DNA from: Alkalidesulfovibrio alkalitolerans DSM 16529
GTDB taxonomy: Bacteria; Desulfobacterota; Desulfovibrionia; Desulfovibrionales; Desulfovibrionaceae
Assembly: GCF_000422245.1 (NCBI RefSeq)
Contig: NZ_ATHI01000026.1
Location: 310,001-374,000 of the forward strand
Direction: 5' to 3'
Length of the DNA stretch: 64,000 bases
Shown here: positions 1-7,535 of the stretch, one piece after another
Layout: the number at the start of each line of letters is the position of its first letter
Numbering within the stretch: the stretch's first letter is position 1
Made by a program: the position numbers and the translations under genes
Notes under the pieces: model-generated
Told to the model about the DNA's origin: nothing
The model's input: only the letters and a program-made list of their open reading frames with translations
The model's database searches: none

Positions 1-1515
1 GGCGGCTTGCGCGGGGGAGAGACCGGGCCGGGAAAGGACGTTTTGCAGTTCGGCGAGCGCGCCGGGGATATCGCCCGTGCGTTCGAGGAGCAGCGCTTCG
101 GCCAGCGGCGGAATGCCGTTCGCGCCCAAGGCGCGCGCGGCGCGAAGCTCGTCCAGGGCTTGCGCATGAAGGCCCTCGGCGGACAGCGCCTCGGAAACGG
201 CCAGTCGCGCCTGCTGCTCTCTTTCGGGCGCCAGCCCAAGGCTAATGGCCGAGCGGAAGTGGTCGATGGCCGGGCCGCGCTGGTCCGCGAGGATGTGGAT
301 GTAGCCCGCCTGCAGGTGCACGGACGCGTCGTCGGAGAGTGCCACGGCCCTGGCGATGGTCGCGGCCGCAGCAACGACGTCGCCGCCTTGCTGCTGGGAC
401 AGGGCCGCGGCCAGAAGCGGTTCCGGCTTGCCGGTCTCGTCGGCCGCGCGCAGGTAGGCAGCCGCGGCCTGGGAGGAAAGCCCCGCTGCCGCAAGCGCAT
501 TGCCCTGGGCCAGCAGAAGGCGGCCGCGCGTCTCGCCCGGCTCGGCCTGCTCGGCCAGTTCGGCATAGATGGACGCAGCCTCGCGGCCTTCGCGGTTCTT
601 GACCAGCAAAACCGCCATTCGTTCCCGGTTTTCGGGAGTCGGTTCGACTTGGGTGAGGCGTCGGATGGCGTCAAGCGCCTTCACGTCCTGCCCGGCGACC
701 ACGAAGAGGTCGCTCAACGCGCGCAGGGCGGAGAGATCGCCAGGGTCGGCGTTGAGCCTGGCCGTAAGGCGCGCCTCGGCCTCTGCGAACTGGCCACTTG
801 CCTTGAGCAGGTCGTCCACCACCATTCGCGTCTCGGGCGAAGGGTCGAGACGTTCGAGGGCTTGGGCGCGTGTGAGCGCCAGTTCGGGACGGTGCATGGC
901 GCGGTACAACTCGATCAACGAGCGCAGGGCCTCCTTGTCGGCAGGATCCTGTTCGACAAGGGCCAGGAGTCTGCGCTCCGATTCCTCGACCAAGCCTTGG
1001 GTCCTGCCGAGTTCGGCCGCCGAGAATAGAGCCAGCCTGCGCCCGTCGCGGTCCAGGCCGGGCGTGGACGCGGCCCGCTCGTATTCCCTTCTGGCCGCGT
1101 CCAGATCGCCGAGACGTTCGAGCGACATGGCCAGCAGCAGGCGTGCCTCGGCATGGTCGGGATTCGCGCCGAGCAGGCGACGGGCGTCCTCGGTTGCTGC
1201 CTCGTGGCGGTCGAGCGCGTTCAGAAGGCGAAGCCGCATCAGTCGGGCGTCCTGATCGTCGGGCACGAGGTCCAAGTAGGTATCGAGTTCCTTCACGGCC
1301 TCGGCCCGCCTGCCCTGCTCAACCATGCGTCCGGCCATGTCCAGGTGCGGATAGGCCTTGAAGTGCAGGTATTCGCGGCGCAAAAGGCCCGGCTCACGCT
1401 GCTCCTGCTCCGGTCCGGTCCGGGACTGGGCGAGGCAGTCCGAGGCGAAGGCCACGGCAAGAAGCGCGAAGAGGACAAGAACGGCGGGGTAAGGGAACGC
1501 GCGATTTTTCGTCAT
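1..1515 (-). CDS. nfrA: NfrA-like TPR protein, phage N4 receptor family (3' end outside window)
   Basis: An open frame of 505 codons runs from an ATG at 1515 off the left edge without a stop. It begins with a signal peptide (charged MTKNR, hydrophobic stretch to about residue 24, likely cleavage near CLAQS at 26-30). The rest is a continuous array of tetratricopeptide-type helical repeats (for example A-E-A-R-L-L-L-A-M-S-L-E-R-L-G-D). In E. coli, NfrA is the outer-membrane N4 receptor and secretion partner of NfrB; its TPR part is periplasmic. The start overlaps the nfrB stop by 4 bp (ATGA), so the two are probably translationally coupled. The family call rests mainly on the TPR architecture plus adjacency to nfrB. 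A generic TPR protein of an exopolysaccharide system is the alternative. The C-terminal membrane part cannot be seen. Confidence 0.72.
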   Translation of the reverse strand, partial: MTKNRAFPYPAVLVLFALLAVAFASDCLAQSRTGPEQEQREPGLLRREYLHFKAYPHLDMAGRMVEQGRRAEAVKELDTYLDLVPDDQDARLMRLRLLNALDRHEAATEDARRLLGANPDHAEARLLLAMSLERLGDLDAARREYERAASTPGLDRDGRRLALFSAAELGRTQGLVEESERRLLALVEQDPADKEALRSLIELYRAMHRPELALTRAQALERLDPSPETRMVVDDLLKASGQFAEAEARLTARLNADPGDLSALRALSDLFVVAGQDVKALDAIRRLTQVEPTPENRERMAVLLVKNREGREAASIYAELAEQAEPGETRGRLLLAQGNALAAAGLSSQAAAAYLRAADETGKPEPLLAAALSQQQGGDVVAAAATIARAVALSDDASVHLQAGYIHILADQRGPAIDHFRSAISLGLAPEREQQARLAVSEALSAEGLHAQALDELRAARALGANGIPPLAEALLLERTGDIPGALAELQNVLSRPGLSPAQAA

Positions 1516-3788
1516 GCGATTTCGCAGGGTTGGTCTTTCCTGAAGGCGAGCAGTTCCCGGACCTCCTCGGGGGTGAGCTCGCAGGCCGTGACGAGCGCTT
1601 GTCCGAGTTTCAACTGGCTTTCGCGTTGCGCTTTCAGGGCCTCGTCGAGCTGTTCCTGGCCGATGCGGCCGGTATGGACCAGGAATTCGCCGAAGCGGTG
1701 GCCGTTGGACTTGGCGAAATATTCGTCCTCGGCCGCAAGCAGATCCTGGTAGCCAAGGGCGCCCCTGGAGACCAGCACGTCGCCCAGGCGGGCATAGGCG
1801 CGGCGTTGCAGGCGCAGGGCCTCTGCAAGTTGATTCTCGGTGCAAAGATTCCTTTTCAGGGCTTCGCGGCCCGTCCAGGGGCATTGTGGCGGCACCTTGG
1901 CGTTGAGCCGTTCGTATCCCCGGCTGATGGCGAAGCTGAGGTCGCTTTTCGCGGCCAGGCACTGCGCCAGGGGACGGCTGATGGTCTCTTCTATCCCCTG
2001 CACGACTTCCATGGGCAAGGGCCGCTCCACGGCCAGTTCCAGCGCGCCGTCCTCGCGTACGGCCACGGGAAAAACGTGGTGCATCTCGGCCAGGTCGCGC
2101 GGGAGCAGCGCGACCACGTCCAAGGGAACGGCGTAGGGATCGATCTCCCTGGTGTCGATGCGAAGCTGCTGTCCGAGTACTTGCAACAACTCGTCCTCGC
2201 TCACGAAGCCAAGGTCCAGAAGAGCCCGGCCCAGGGGCTTGCCCGTGCGCCGTTGCTCCTCCAGCGCCTTGTCGAGCTGGCCGACGCTGACGAAGCGCTT
2301 GTCGAGCAGGAGGTCGCCGAGCTTGCGGCGGTAGGCCGTGAGTTCCTCTTCCGAGGGGAAGACGTGGGCGGTCTTGTCCCAGGCCACGATCTTGCCCGTG
2401 ATCAGGTAGCGGACGTAGAGCCGGATGGCGCGGACCGTGGCGAAGAAATTGATGACGTTGCCCCAGACGAGGTGGGGCAGGGCGAAGAGGGCGTTGAACG
2501 GTCCGTAGGCGCGGTTGACGAAGGACATGCGCATGAGCACGCGCCACAGCAAAAAGCCCATGTTCATGAGGATCATGTACCAGACCCAGGAATCCTTCTG
2601 GACCAGGGGTGGATAGCGGTAGGCGTCGGGGTTCATCTCCTGGTAGGCCCACATGAGGATCAAGGGCACGGCCAGGACGTTGGCGCTCATGCTGATGAGG
2701 TTCGTGAGCAGGGCCTTTCTGTCGCGAAAGAGCATGTAGCGGGTCCAGATCGACCCTTTCCAGCCGAGCCTGGCCCAGCCCTGCAGGGCGATGCCGAGCA
2801 CCCAGCGGCTTTTTTGGCGCACCGCCGTGCTGAAGGTTTGGGGAAAGAATTCGCGGATGACGATGTATTCGCGCACCGTGCGGGTGCGGGTCTTGCCGGT
2901 CAGCCAGCTTTTGGTCGAACTTTTGCGCTCGATGGCGTGACGCACGAAGACCTGCTTGAGGTCGTACTTCTGTAGCCGCATGCCGATGTCGTAGTCCTCG
3001 GTCAACGAGTCCACGTTGAAAAGCTGGTGCTGATTGTCCGTGGCCAGTGAGTCCAGGGCCAGGCGGCTGTAGCCGGTGCCCACGCCCGCCGAGGGGATGG
3101 CCCCGGACAGTATCTCGCGCACGGTCATGTCGCGGGCGTGGTTCTCGGCGAATTCGTCCAGGTAGTGGCCGGCCGTGAATTTGTACCACGGCGTGGGCAT
3201 GGGGAAGACCGGAAGCTGGACCATGTCCATGCGCGGGATGAGGTAGTTGAAGAGCCGAAGCGTCAGGGGGTGGATGATGTCCTCCGAGTCCTCCATGACG
3301 AAGACTTCGAAGCGGATGTCGTGCTCCTTTTCGTAGAGCTTGATGCCCTCGTAGACCCAGTTCAGGCAGTCTGCCTTGTTGGTCGGCCCGTCCTTGGGGC
3401 AGACGATGCGCGAGACCTTGCCGAACTCCTCGCGGGCGAGTTCCACCTCGCGCTGCGTGGCCTGGTCGTTCGGGTAGGTGCCAACGAAGATGTGATAGTT
3501 CGAATAGTTGAGCGTTCGTATGGTGTTGCTGAGCATGCGCCGGATCACGGCGGACTCGTCCCAGCAGGGGATCATGATCGCGATGGGCTGCTCCGGCTTG
3601 GCCAGTAGCTGCTCTTCGGTCAGGCGTTTGTGCTTCGAATAGACGAAGGCGCGGCGGTAGACGAGCCGCGCGGCGTACACGAAATCGATGAAGAGCTCGT
3701 CGAAACCGCTGATGATGAAGATGATGCTCAAGGCGACGAGCGCGTATTTGGCGAAGATCAGGAAATAGATGAGAATGTCTTCAAACAT
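1512..3788 (-). CDS. nfrB: NfrB-like membrane glycosyltransferase with C-terminal MshEN c-di-GMP-binding domains
   Basis: This 758-aa protein (E. coli NfrB is about 745 aa) starts MFEDILIYF. One membrane helix lies at about 10-30. A GT2 catalytic domain follows, with EDSED near 166-170, TEDYD near 263-267 and QKSRW near 325-329, the metal/donor and acceptor motifs of processive GT2 enzymes. Further membrane segments lie at about 360-455. The C-terminus carries MshEN-type half motifs (hydrophobic-G-x3-L ... L-x2-hydrophobic-L-x2-Q) at 489-512 and 518-541, and three weaker ones at 667-690, 698-721 and 727-750. MshEN domains bind cyclic di-GMP. The family polymerises a ManNAc-type polymer in E. 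coli. The start was chosen because it overlaps the wecB stop by 8 bp; the upstream-extended frame lies inside wecB. Confidence 0.85.
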   Translation of the reverse strand: MFEDILIYFLIFAKYALVALSIIFIISGFDELFIDFVYAARLVYRRAFVYSKHKRLTEEQLLAKPEQPIAIMIPCWDESAVIRRMLSNTIRTLNYSNYHIFVGTYPNDQATQREVELAREEFGKVSRIVCPKDGPTNKADCLNWVYEGIKLYEKEHDIRFEVFVMEDSEDIIHPLTLRLFNYLIPRMDMVQLPVFPMPTPWYKFTAGHYLDEFAENHARDMTVREILSGAIPSAGVGTGYSRLALDSLATDNQHQLFNVDSLTEDYDIGMRLQKYDLKQVFVRHAIERKSSTKSWLTGKTRTRTVREYIVIREFFPQTFSTAVRQKSRWVLGIALQGWARLGWKGSIWTRYMLFRDRKALLTNLISMSANVLAVPLILMWAYQEMNPDAYRYPPLVQKDSWVWYMILMNMGFLLWRVLMRMSFVNRAYGPFNALFALPHLVWGNVINFFATVRAIRLYVRYLITGKIVAWDKTAHVFPSEEELTAYRRKLGDLLLDKRFVSVGQLDKALEEQRRTGKPLGRALLDLGFVSEDELLQVLGQQLRIDTREIDPYAVPLDVVALLPRDLAEMHHVFPVAVREDGALELAVERPLPMEVVQGIEETISRPLAQCLAAKSDLSFAISRGYERLNAKVPPQCPWTGREALKRNLCTENQLAEALRLQRRAYARLGDVLVSRGALGYQDLLAAEDEYFAKSNGHRFGEFLVHTGRIGQEQLDEALKAQRESQLKLGQALVTACELTPEEVRELLAFRKDQPCEIA

Positions 3789-4968
3789 CGTGCGAAGATC
3801 CGGGGTCGAATTCGTCGTGGGGTTCGAGGAGCGGGGTCGCGCCAGTCGCGAAGCGCGCAAGGCCCGTGATGATGCGGCGCGCGGCCTGGCCGTCGCCATA
3901 GGGGTTCTTGGCCCTGCTCATGGCCGCATAAGCCGTCTCGTCGTCCAAAAGGCGCAGGGTTTCGCGCACGATGCGCGTGCGATCGGTGCCCACGAGCAGA
4001 GCCAGACCCTGCCTGGATGCCTCGGGCCGCTCGGTGACCGAGCGCAAAACCAGGACCGGGCGTCCGAAGGTCGGGGCCTCTTCCTGCACGCCGCCCGAGT
4101 CGGTGAGGATCAGGCGGCTTTGCCGCATGAGCCTGACGAACGCGCCGTAGTCCAGCGGGTCGCACAGGACCACGCCCGGCACGTCGCCGAGGATGGCGTG
4201 GGCCGGGCCGCGTACGTTGGGGTTCAGGTGCACGGGATAGACGAGCAGCGTGTCGGGTCTGGCCGTTGCGATGTCGCGCAGGGCGAGGAAGACGTTCTCC
4301 ATCTCCCGGCCGAACGACTCGCGGCGGTGCGTGGTGACCAGGATCGGCGTGCGGCCCGCGAGCAGGGTCTCGTCAAAGGGCAGCGGCGCGCTGGCCGCGC
4401 GGCCGGAGGCGTCGAGCAGGCGCAGGGCGTCGACCACGGTGTTGCCGGTGACGGCGGTGCGGGCACGGTCCACGCCCTCGGCGAGCAGGTTGTCGCGCGC
4501 GCCTTTCGTGGGAGCGAAGTGCAGGCTGCTCAGGACCCCGGCTAGGCGGCGGTTGGCTTCCTCGGGGTATGGGTTGGCCATGTCGCGGCTGCGAAGGCCG
4601 GCCTCCACGTGGGCCACGGGGACGCGGGCATAGAAGGCGGCCAGCGAGGCGGCGAAGACCGTGGTCGTGTCGCCCTGGACCACGAGCACGTCGGGCCGTA
4701 CCTCGGCAAGGGCCGTTTCCATGCCCAACAGCGCGCGCGAGGTGAGCCCCGCCAGTCCCTGGTCGGGCCGCATGACGTCGAGGTCCAGGTCCGGCTCGAT
4801 GGCGAAGAGCGCAAGCACCTGGTCGAGCATCTGGCGATGCTGGGCCGTGGATATGACCGTGAGGCGGAAAAGGTCGCCGCGGTCCCTCAGTTCGTGAACG
4901 ACCGGCGCGAGCTTGACCGCCTCGGGACGCGTCCCGAGGGCGATTGCAACGTGAACGAGTTTTTTCAT
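3781..4968 (-). CDS. wecB: UDP-N-acetylglucosamine 2-epimerase (non-hydrolysing)
   Basis: The 395-aa product interconverts UDP-GlcNAc and UDP-ManNAc in the cytoplasm. The start MKKLVHVAIALGTRPEAVKLAP carries the family's N-terminal GTRPEA(I/V)K(L/M)AP signature. Later come TAQHRQMLDQVL, VQGDTTTVFAASLAAFY, HVEAGLRSRD and TDSGGVQEEAPTFGRPVLVLR, the substrate-binding and catalytic motifs of the family. Length is normal. An in-frame extension upstream to 5157 has no family similarity and crosses an AT-rich promoter-like stretch (around 5058-5090). It is the first gene of wecB-nfrB-nfrA and overlaps nfrB by 8 bp. Co-transcription with the glycosyltransferase suggests that it supplies UDP-ManNAc for the NfrB polymer rather than for a generic O-antigen. 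Confidence 0.93.
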   Translation of the reverse strand: MKKLVHVAIALGTRPEAVKLAPVVHELRDRGDLFRLTVISTAQHRQMLDQVLALFAIEPDLDLDVMRPDQGLAGLTSRALLGMETALAEVRPDVLVVQGDTTTVFAASLAAFYARVPVAHVEAGLRSRDMANPYPEEANRRLAGVLSSLHFAPTKGARDNLLAEGVDRARTAVTGNTVVDALRLLDASGRAASAPLPFDETLLAGRTPILVTTHRRESFGREMENVFLALRDIATARPDTLLVYPVHLNPNVRGPAHAILGDVPGVVLCDPLDYGAFVRLMRQSRLILTDSGGVQEEAPTFGRPVLVLRSVTERPEASRQGLALLVGTDRTRIVRETLRLLDDETAYAAMSRAKNPYGDGQAARRIITGLARFATGATPLLEPHDEFDPGSSHDV

Positions 4969-5245: not shown

Positions 5246-6412
5246 ATGCCCGAGCCGCGCCTGACAGAGCTTCGCAAGTTCATCGCGCCCGAGTTCGTCT
5301 TCGGACCCGGCGCATCCGCGCTTACGGCCCGTTACGCCAGAAATTTCCATGCGAGCCGCGTGCTGCTCGTCTCCGATCCCGGCGTGATGGAGGCCGGATG
5401 GACGGAACAGGTGGCCGAGAGCCTGCGCGCCGCGGGCGTGACTCCGGTGCTCTTCGCCGACGTCTCGCCCAACCCGCGCGACCATGAGGTCATGCGCGGT
5501 GCGGATATTTATGCCGCGGAGGGCTGCGAGGCCATCGTGGCCGTGGGCGGCGGCAGCCCCATGGACTGCGCCAAGGCCATCGGCGTGGCCCAGGCCAACG
5601 GCGCGCACGTCCTCTCCTTCGAGGGAGTGGACAATGTGCCCGAGCCCGGTCCGCCCCTGATCTGTCTGCCCACCACCTCGGGCAGCGCGGCCGAGGTCTC
5701 GCAATTCTCCATCATCACCGACACCGGGCGATCGGTGAAGATCGCCATCGTCAGCAAGACCATGATCCCGGACGTGGCGCTCATCGACCCGGTGCTGACC
5801 ACGACCATGGACGCGCACCTCACGGCCTGCACCGGGCTCGACGCCCTGACGCACGCCGTGGAAGCCTACGTCTCCAACGCCCATTTCGCCATCACGGACC
5901 AGTTCGCCCTTTCGGCCATCCGTCGCATCGCCGGGAACCTGCTGTCGGCCATCCGCTCGCCCGGCGACATCGAGGCCCGTTCGCAGATGCTCCTGGCGAG
6001 CCTTGAGGCCGGGCTGGCCTTTTCCAACGCCATCCTGGGCGCGGTACACGCCATGGCCCACAGCCTGGGTGGTCTTTTGGACCTGCCGCACGGCGAGGTC
6101 AACGCGCTGCTCCTGCCGTACGTGGCCGACTACAACTTCGATGCATGCCCTAAGCGCTACCGCGACGTCGCGACGGCTCTGGGCGTCGACGAGGCCGGGC
6201 TTTCCGACACGCAGACGCGGCGTGCGCTTTTCGATGGCCTAGTGCGGCTCAAGAACGCGGCGGGCATAACGAGCACGCTCGGGCAACTCGGCGTGGACGA
6301 GAACGATCTGGCCGGGCTGGCGCGAAATGCCGCCCGCGACCCCTGCCTGCTGACGAACCCCAAGAGCGCGGGCGAGGACGACCTGAGGCGGCTGTATGCG
6401 CAGGCGCTCTAG
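5246..6412 (+). CDS. ercA: Iron-containing (type III) alcohol dehydrogenase, ErcA-like
   Basis: A 388-aa group III alcohol dehydrogenase fold. The nucleotide-binding loop GGGSPMDCAK is at 101-110 and PTTSGSAAEVS at 142-152. The expected metal ligands are D199, H203, H268 (in GAVHAMAHSLGG) and H282 (in LPHGEVNALLLP), so the enzyme looks catalytically complete. In Pseudomonas, ErcA is an ADH-like protein that acts in regulation of ethanol oxidation together with sensor kinases. Here the 3' end overlaps a PAS-HisKA_2 kinase gene by 17 bp, which points to the same ADH/kinase partnership. A plain NAD-dependent alcohol or butanol dehydrogenase for fermentative alcohol metabolism cannot be excluded. 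Confidence 0.85.
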   Translation: MPEPRLTELRKFIAPEFVFGPGASALTARYARNFHASRVLLVSDPGVMEAGWTEQVAESLRAAGVTPVLFADVSPNPRDHEVMRGADIYAAEGCEAIVAVGGGSPMDCAKAIGVAQANGAHVLSFEGVDNVPEPGPPLICLPTTSGSAAEVSQFSIITDTGRSVKIAIVSKTMIPDVALIDPVLTTTMDAHLTACTGLDALTHAVEAYVSNAHFAITDQFALSAIRRIAGNLLSAIRSPGDIEARSQMLLASLEAGLAFSNAILGAVHAMAHSLGGLLDLPHGEVNALLLPYVADYNFDACPKRYRDVATALGVDEAGLSDTQTRRALFDGLVRLKNAAGITSTLGQLGVDENDLAGLARNAARDPCLLTNPKSAGEDDLRRLYAQAL

Positions 6413-7535
6413 CTCCAAGACCGGCTACGCCGAATGGGGCTTTGGCTCCAGGGAGCCGCTTCCGGCCGAAAACGGTATCGACGAGCAGCGGCTGCGGCTG
6501 ATTGGGCTTGGCGAGCGCTCGTTCCAGAAGAGCTATTTTCCGGAACTCAAGAAAAGGCTGGTGGAACTGGAGCGTTTCCGGGCGCTCCTCGACCGCGCAA
6601 GCGACCTCATATTCCTCGTGGACGGCGAGGACGGCCGCATCGAGGACGCCAACGTCAGCGCCCTGGCGCGGCTGGGACGCACCCAGGCCGGGCTTCGGCG
6701 CATGCGGCTCTCGGACTTCTCGGAACTGGACATGGCGACCTGTCTGGCCGGGGAGGCGCCAGCCGACCGTCGCTTGGAAACGGTCTTCACCACCGCCGCG
6801 GGCGAGCGCTTTCCCGTGGAGGTCAGCGCAAGTTCCATGCTCGTGGCCGGTGAGCGGCAATGCGTGCTCGTGGCCCGCGACATCACCGAACGCAAGGCCG
6901 CCGAGGACAAGCTGCACCTGTCGCTGCGCGAGAAGGAGACCCTGCTCAAGGAAATCCACCACCGGGTCAAGAACAACTTGCAAGTGGTCTCAAGCCTCTT
7001 GCATCTCCAGATGAACGAGTTGCGCGAGTGCGCGGGCATGGAGGCGCTGCGCGAGAGCGCCGCCAGGATCAGCACCATGGCCCTGGTGCACGAGCAGATC
7101 TATCGTTCGCCCAACCTCGCGAGCATCAACCTGGGAGATTACCTGGAAAAGCTTCTGGTGCGGCTGGTGCGCGGGTTCGCGGGCCAATGCTCCGTGGCCC
7201 ACGAAGTGCGCGTTCCGGCCCTCGGTCTCGACGTGGAGAAGGCCGTGCCGCTCGGACTGATCGTCAACGAGGCCGTGACCAACGCCCTTAAGCACGGCAT
7301 GGCCGGACGCGAGGCCGGGCGCATAGATATCTTCGCTGAGGAGACCGCCGAGGGGGCGGTGATCGAGGTGCGCGACGACGGCCCCGGATTTCCGCCGGGC
7401 ATCGACCTGCCTTCGGGCCGCACGCTCGGTATCCAACTCATAACCGGACTCGCCCGGCAACTCGACGGGAACGTGACCTTCGTCAACACGCCCGGCGCCA
7501 CGGTGCGCCTCGGCTTCCCCCTCGAAAAGGCATAG
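6396..7535 (+). CDS. PAS-domain sensor histidine kinase (HisKA_2 type)
   Basis: A 379-aa soluble kinase without membrane segments. It has an N-terminal linker, a PAS domain at about 60-168 ending in the typical DITERKAAEDKL, then the HisKA_2 phosphoacceptor motif EIHHRVKNNLQVVSSLL (His188/189). The HATPase domain shows NEAVTNALKHG and DDGPGFPPG. HisKA_2 kinases often signal through free response regulators or PAS-linked output proteins; none is next to this gene. It starts inside the end of the ErcA-like gene, so both are co-expressed. The signal is probably cytoplasmic and linked to the dehydrogenase. The alternative is an independent stress kinase. Confidence 0.88.
   Translation: MRRRSSSKTGYAEWGFGSREPLPAENGIDEQRLRLIGLGERSFQKSYFPELKKRLVELERFRALLDRASDLIFLVDGEDGRIEDANVSALARLGRTQAGLRRMRLSDFSELDMATCLAGEAPADRRLETVFTTAAGERFPVEVSASSMLVAGERQCVLVARDITERKAAEDKLHLSLREKETLLKEIHHRVKNNLQVVSSLLHLQMNELRECAGMEALRESAARISTMALVHEQIYRSPNLASINLGDYLEKLLVRLVRGFAGQCSVAHEVRVPALGLDVEKAVPLGLIVNEAVTNALKHGMAGREAGRIDIFAEETAEGAVIEVRDDGPGFPPGIDLPSGRTLGIQLITGLARQLDGNVTFVNTPGATVRLGFPLEKA

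Follow-up and report, generated by a model that had tools for sequence, protein, structure and literature searches.

The window analysed in this study, a 64,000-nucleotide stretch of the Alkalidesulfovibrio alkalitolerans DSM 16529 genome (G000:C26:310001-374000; assembly of 3.2 Mb in 32 contigs), contains at its low end part of a four-gene cluster, wecB-nfrB-nfrA-ybcH, which very probably represents an Nfr exopolysaccharide operon acting by the following steps, that of YbcH included. WecB would epimerise UDP-GlcNAc to UDP-ManNAc; c-di-GMP at the MshEN region would switch on NfrB, which would polymerise UDP-ManNAc and thread the growing chain through the inner membrane; and the TPR superhelix of NfrA would lead the chain across the periplasm to a C-terminal 12-strand outer-membrane barrel. 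YbcH, an exported and probably membrane-anchored TIM-barrel enzyme, would most likely cut or trim the polymer. Underlying this scheme are the gene order, protein families, catalytic motifs and conserved linkage of the four genes, together with the barrel and TIM-barrel models, all of which were observed here.

Organization of the four-gene cluster

All four genes lie on the minus strand. The first, wecB, occupies window positions 3781-4968 (395 aa; ATG at 4968, stop at 3781) and is followed by nfrB at 1512-3788 (758 aa; ATG at 3788, stop at 1512). The longest open reading frames of both genes begin further upstream, that of nfrB at an ATG at 3899; the starts preferred here are the ATGs at 4968 and 3788, which agree with the family alignments. 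The 5′ part of nfrA covers window positions 1-1515 and accounts for 505 of its 1,238 codons, encoding a signal peptide and TPR repeats. We followed the same contig past the low end of the window in locus L004, in which each position equals the window position plus 12000. The whole nfrA gene lies at L004:9799-13515, from its ATG at window position 1515 to its end at window position -2201, and the fourth gene, ybcH (DUF4434), lies at L004:8792-9799, corresponding to window positions -2201 to -3208. The operon thus extends 3.2 kb beyond the low end of the window. Consecutive genes overlap by 8 (wecB/nfrB), 4 (nfrB/nfrA) and 1 (nfrA/ybcH) nucleotide(s), and the ATG of ybcH overlaps the stop of nfrA.

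The initial annotation of three overlapping genes on one strand at positions 1-4968 is confirmed, with the range correct and the WecB, NfrB and NfrA identities upheld by profile matches and alignments; its gene set was real as far as it went and missed ybcH, which lies outside the window. On the other side of the operon, window positions 5246-7535 encode an ErcA-like iron alcohol dehydrogenase (NF041833, 602 bits), whose gene is divergent, and after it a HisKA_2-type PAS histidine kinase.

Precursor enzyme and synthase

The wecB product is predicted to be a WecB/NfrC-like non-hydrolysing UDP-GlcNAc 2-epimerase that supplies UDP-ManNAc. It matches TIGR00236 with 454 bits (cut-off 210) and the structure of E. 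coli WecB (1VGV) with 413 bits, and the D/E/E/H residues, which correspond to D95, E117, E131 and H213 and which we take to be catalytic, are aligned and kept. Two further epimerases are encoded in the same genome: one scores 401 bits as a UDP-diNAcGlcA 2-epimerase of the WbpI type vs 166 for E. coli WecB, and the other is NeuC (392.7 bits), encoded beside NeuB. Since these two are WbpI-like and NeuC-like, the nfr-linked wecB is the only WecB proper of this genome, and the idea that it is a mere duplicate of a housekeeping copy was rejected here on the same grounds. The NeuC-NeuB pair (L003:1462-3659, on G000:C3) likely belongs to a nonulosonic (sialic-acid-type) sugar pathway.

NfrB matches the GT2 Pfam family (117 bits), MshEN (PF05157, 36.5 bits), NF053729 (136 bits) and, above its cut-off of 537, NF012033 (726 bits). 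Its score of 682.5 bits against NF008411, the NCBI equivalog for E. coli-type NfrB, is under the curated cut-off of 1170, and the protein is classified by these profiles as a relative of E. coli-type NfrB outside that narrow equivalog. Alignment with E. coli NfrB, which had been proposed as a check, gave 36% identity over 747 aa and revealed that the GT2 motifs are kept, namely the DxD-type EDSED, TED (263-265) and QKSRW (325-329, corresponding to QxxRW), as are the LG residues of both MshEN motifs (490-491 and 519-520). The C-terminal region also matches the MshE structure 5HTL. By these similarities NfrB is assigned as an inner-membrane processive GT2 synthase with a C-terminal, predicted c-di-GMP-binding MshEN region. 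Extra tandem MshEN motifs at the C-terminus were considered as a special feature and dismissed, as E. coli NfrB retains remnants of this stretch. An assignment as cellulose synthase or PgaC was likewise rejected, as the highest-ranking matches over the full length are NfrB models.

From E. coli, for which nfr genetics and c-di-GMP binding have been reported (PMC8669469, PMC8669472), we infer the likely substrate of the operon, its activation by c-di-GMP and the export of its product. The initial annotation had taken synthesis of a ManNAc polymer by E. coli NfrB as known; both papers on E. coli postulate this polymer from genetics and do not show it chemically (PMC8669469, PMC8669472). The locus had also been described as self-contained. 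This description holds for wecB, which is built into the operon, and fails in two respects, as UDP-GlcNAc would come from general metabolism and the operon carries no diguanylate cyclase gene. No such gene was found in the operon or the 64-kb window, and 22 GGDEF matches were identified in the genome. Since none of these matches falls in the window, the source of c-di-GMP is unlinked to the nfr operon here. By a crude GGDEF motif search, only three of the 20 related loci have likely cyclases, at a distance of some kilobases.

Linkage of wecB to nfr genes across Desulfovibrionales

We surveyed 297 Desulfovibrionales genomes with an NfrB threshold of E <= 1e-60. NfrB was detected in 20 genomes, representing nine of 55 genera, and the order nfrB-nfrA-ybcH is the same in all 21 loci of these genomes. 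A wecB gene is present within the cluster in 18 of the 20 genomes; it directly precedes nfrB in 17 of the 21 loci (that of the window included) and follows ybcH in one (G031). The co-occurrence survey suggested with the initial annotation therefore bears out its view of wecB as a built-in part, and the wecB-bearing nfr cluster, newly documented here, is the usual form in Desulfovibrionales. The linkage is not obligatory, as G011, G130 and one of the two G174 copies lack a linked wecB. G174, a Halodesulfovibrio, contains two nfrB-nfrA-ybcH clusters (L050 and L051), only one of which is accompanied by wecB. Matches to TIGR00236 above the cut-off occur in 20 of 20 NfrB genomes vs 127 of 297 overall; the naive hypergeometric probability of this co-occurrence (1.7e-8) makes no correction for kinship among the genomes and therefore overstates its significance. 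A maximum-likelihood tree of WecB proteins groups 17 of the 18 linked ones in a single clade (support 99/99) that includes only two unlinked proteins. The linked WecB of G031 is placed outside this clade, which suggests that its wecB became associated with the nfr genes independently.

These results bear on the donor of the synthase. NfrB might instead be a cellulose-, PGA- or hyaluronan-like synthase using UDP-Glc or UDP-GlcNAc, with the adjacent wecB contributing to a different pathway, for instance UDP-ManNAcA synthesis for O-antigen, given that the donor is not fixed by a GT2 Pfam match alone and that E. coli WecB serves the ECA pathway too (PMC8669469). We regard this reading as unlikely in view of the position of wecB, which immediately precedes nfrB at 17 loci and follows ybcH at one more, the separate clade formed by nearly all linked WecBs, and the best full-length matches of NfrB, which are to NfrB models and not to BcsA or PgaC. 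For the preferred UDP-ManNAc donor, independent support comes from a lineage in which the enzyme predicted to make this sugar is encoded together with the synthase and, at least in the present genome, is the sole WecB proper.

NfrB is absent from both same-genus genomes searched, and the Nfr system is therefore sporadic. That the operon has decayed, or was acquired recently as foreign DNA, and has no function in its host seems very improbable: the two same-genus genomes without it keep the flanking ErcA-kinase pair together, as such an origin would allow, but none of the four genes is disrupted and their ends overlap, their catalytic residues are conserved, and their GC (62-70%) and GC3 (82-87%) contents are like those of their neighbours. 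A recent foreign origin was thus rejected for want of any compositional sign, though the presence of the operon is sporadic.

The operon mainly extends published work on Nfr systems to Desulfovibrionales. That NfrB hosts include delta-proteobacteria, and that nfrB and wecB are linked in species without another WecB, e.g., Pseudomonas soli SJ10, was reported by Junkermeier and Hengge 2021 (PMC8669469); the linkage, which the initial annotation offered as a new inference, had therefore already been described, and the locus obeys this published rule that an nfr-linked wecB occurs where the genome has no other WecB. Clusters of this kind in other proteobacteria likewise have wecB joined to nfrB; in most pseudomonads a diguanylate cyclase gene adjoins the cluster (PMC8669469), whereas the operon here has none adjoining. 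New in the present work are a survey of the whole order, the composition of the cluster as four genes, a tree of WecB proteins, the reading of YbcH as a glycosidase and a variant with split NfrA.

The nfr genes of E. coli K-12 share with the operon the order nfrB-nfrA-ybcH, the catalytic and MshEN motifs of NfrB, the TPR and NfrA_C parts of NfrA and the invariant residues of YbcH. They differ in that wecB (nfrC) is located in the ECA cluster of E. coli K-12 and is the first operon gene here, and in the length of NfrA (990 aa vs 1,238 aa here). The E. coli K-12 NGR is the phage N4 glycan receptor, whereas the operon here has no known ECA or phage N4 link; by analogy, a phage-receptor role in the Alkalidesulfovibrio host is plausible. 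To our knowledge, polymer chemistry is known for no Nfr system, and wecB-nfrB-nfrA-ybcH offers a compact gene set for reconstitution of the Nfr glycan.

NfrA exporter and the putative glycosidase YbcH

NfrA (1,238 aa) contains a signal peptide called by eye, many TPRs and the Pfam NfrA_C domain (PF13283, 80 bits). Its last 279 residues, modelled from an alignment with 20 relatives, form 12 beta-strands (pLDDT 86), and the nearest solved folds are OmpG, FapF and other outer-membrane barrels. Extension to the 3′ end of nfrA has thus revealed the C-terminal outer-membrane domain expected of this protein. The similarity of NfrA and YbcH to their E. coli counterparts is low (25-26%).

YbcH matches DUF4434 (PF14488) with 123.7 bits, is 26% identical to E. 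coli YbcH and takes the same position as ybcH in MG1655; from E. coli to Desulfovibrionales, ybcH closes the Nfr operon. No paper on DUF4434 was found in the literature library searched, and a sequence search of YbcH against the PDB gave no match, hence none to a solved glycosidase. The model of YbcH is an eight-stranded beta/alpha barrel (TIM barrel; pLDDT 90) whose nearest solved fold is BT_0435 (Z 31), followed at Z 18-19 by GH164 and GH5 mannosidases and mannanases and the C-terminal GH domain of E. coli PgaB. Residues E160, D162, D163 and E265 are invariant in 21 aligned YbcH proteins and E. coli YbcH. Glutamates on strands 4 and 7 take the places of acid/base and nucleophile in 4/7 glycosidases; in YbcH, E160 lies in the fourth strand (152-162) and E265 in the seventh (259-265), giving a (beta/alpha)8 barrel of the 4/7 type (clan GH-A-like) with carboxylates at the ends of both strands.

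YbcH is most likely a polymer-trimming glycosidase, an activity proposed in the present work only; a shared fold alone is no proof of activity. For the more specific proposal that YbcH/DUF4434 acts in the periplasm as a glycoside hydrolase dedicated to the NfrB polymer, comparable to PgaB or PslG as a partner, we consider the chances evenly balanced. A non-catalytic periplasmic scaffold is a possible but more doubtful role. It agrees with the missing sequence match to any solved glycosidase and with the literature on E. coli, in which YbcH is a putative scaffold, its role is not essential, and its deletion restored motility only partly and left N4 infection intact (PMC8669469); set against it are the confident TIM-barrel model with its glycosidase-like neighbours and the strict conservation of E160 and E265. 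If YbcH is such a dedicated hydrolase, it would define a glycosidase family that is new and has a ManNAc polymer as its substrate, and would provide an enzyme tool for detecting that polymer. As a likely glycosidase, it could serve to cut and identify the Nfr polymer.

In the PgaABCD system, a c-di-GMP-controlled GT2 synthase is accompanied by PgaA, an exporter with TPRs and a barrel, and by PgaB, which is exported and contains a glycoside-hydrolase barrel. The Nfr operon here has a similar set of synthase, exporter and barrel protein, and the YbcH model aligns with the C-terminal domain of PgaB (Z 18). It differs from PgaABCD in lacking a deacetylase, in its c-di-GMP receptor and in its precursor, which is UDP-GlcNAc for PgaABCD and predicted to be UDP-ManNAc for the Nfr operon.

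In one locus of the survey (L046, genome G238), nfrA lies in two frames with no added domains, likely reflecting a frameshift or an assembly error. A different arrangement, in which NfrA is divided between two genes, was observed in four genomes of one genus (L036, L037, L039 and L040 of G150, G137, G134 and G135, respectively); sequencing error is unlikely, as the split occurs in all four cluster-bearing genomes of the genus. The first gene encodes a TPR protein that has an AMIN domain at its end (PF11741, 34-38 bits in L036, L039 and L040, which were scanned; L037 is alike by eye), and the second has its own signal-peptide-like start, TPRs and the NfrA_C barrel, a division that recalls AlgK and AlgE.
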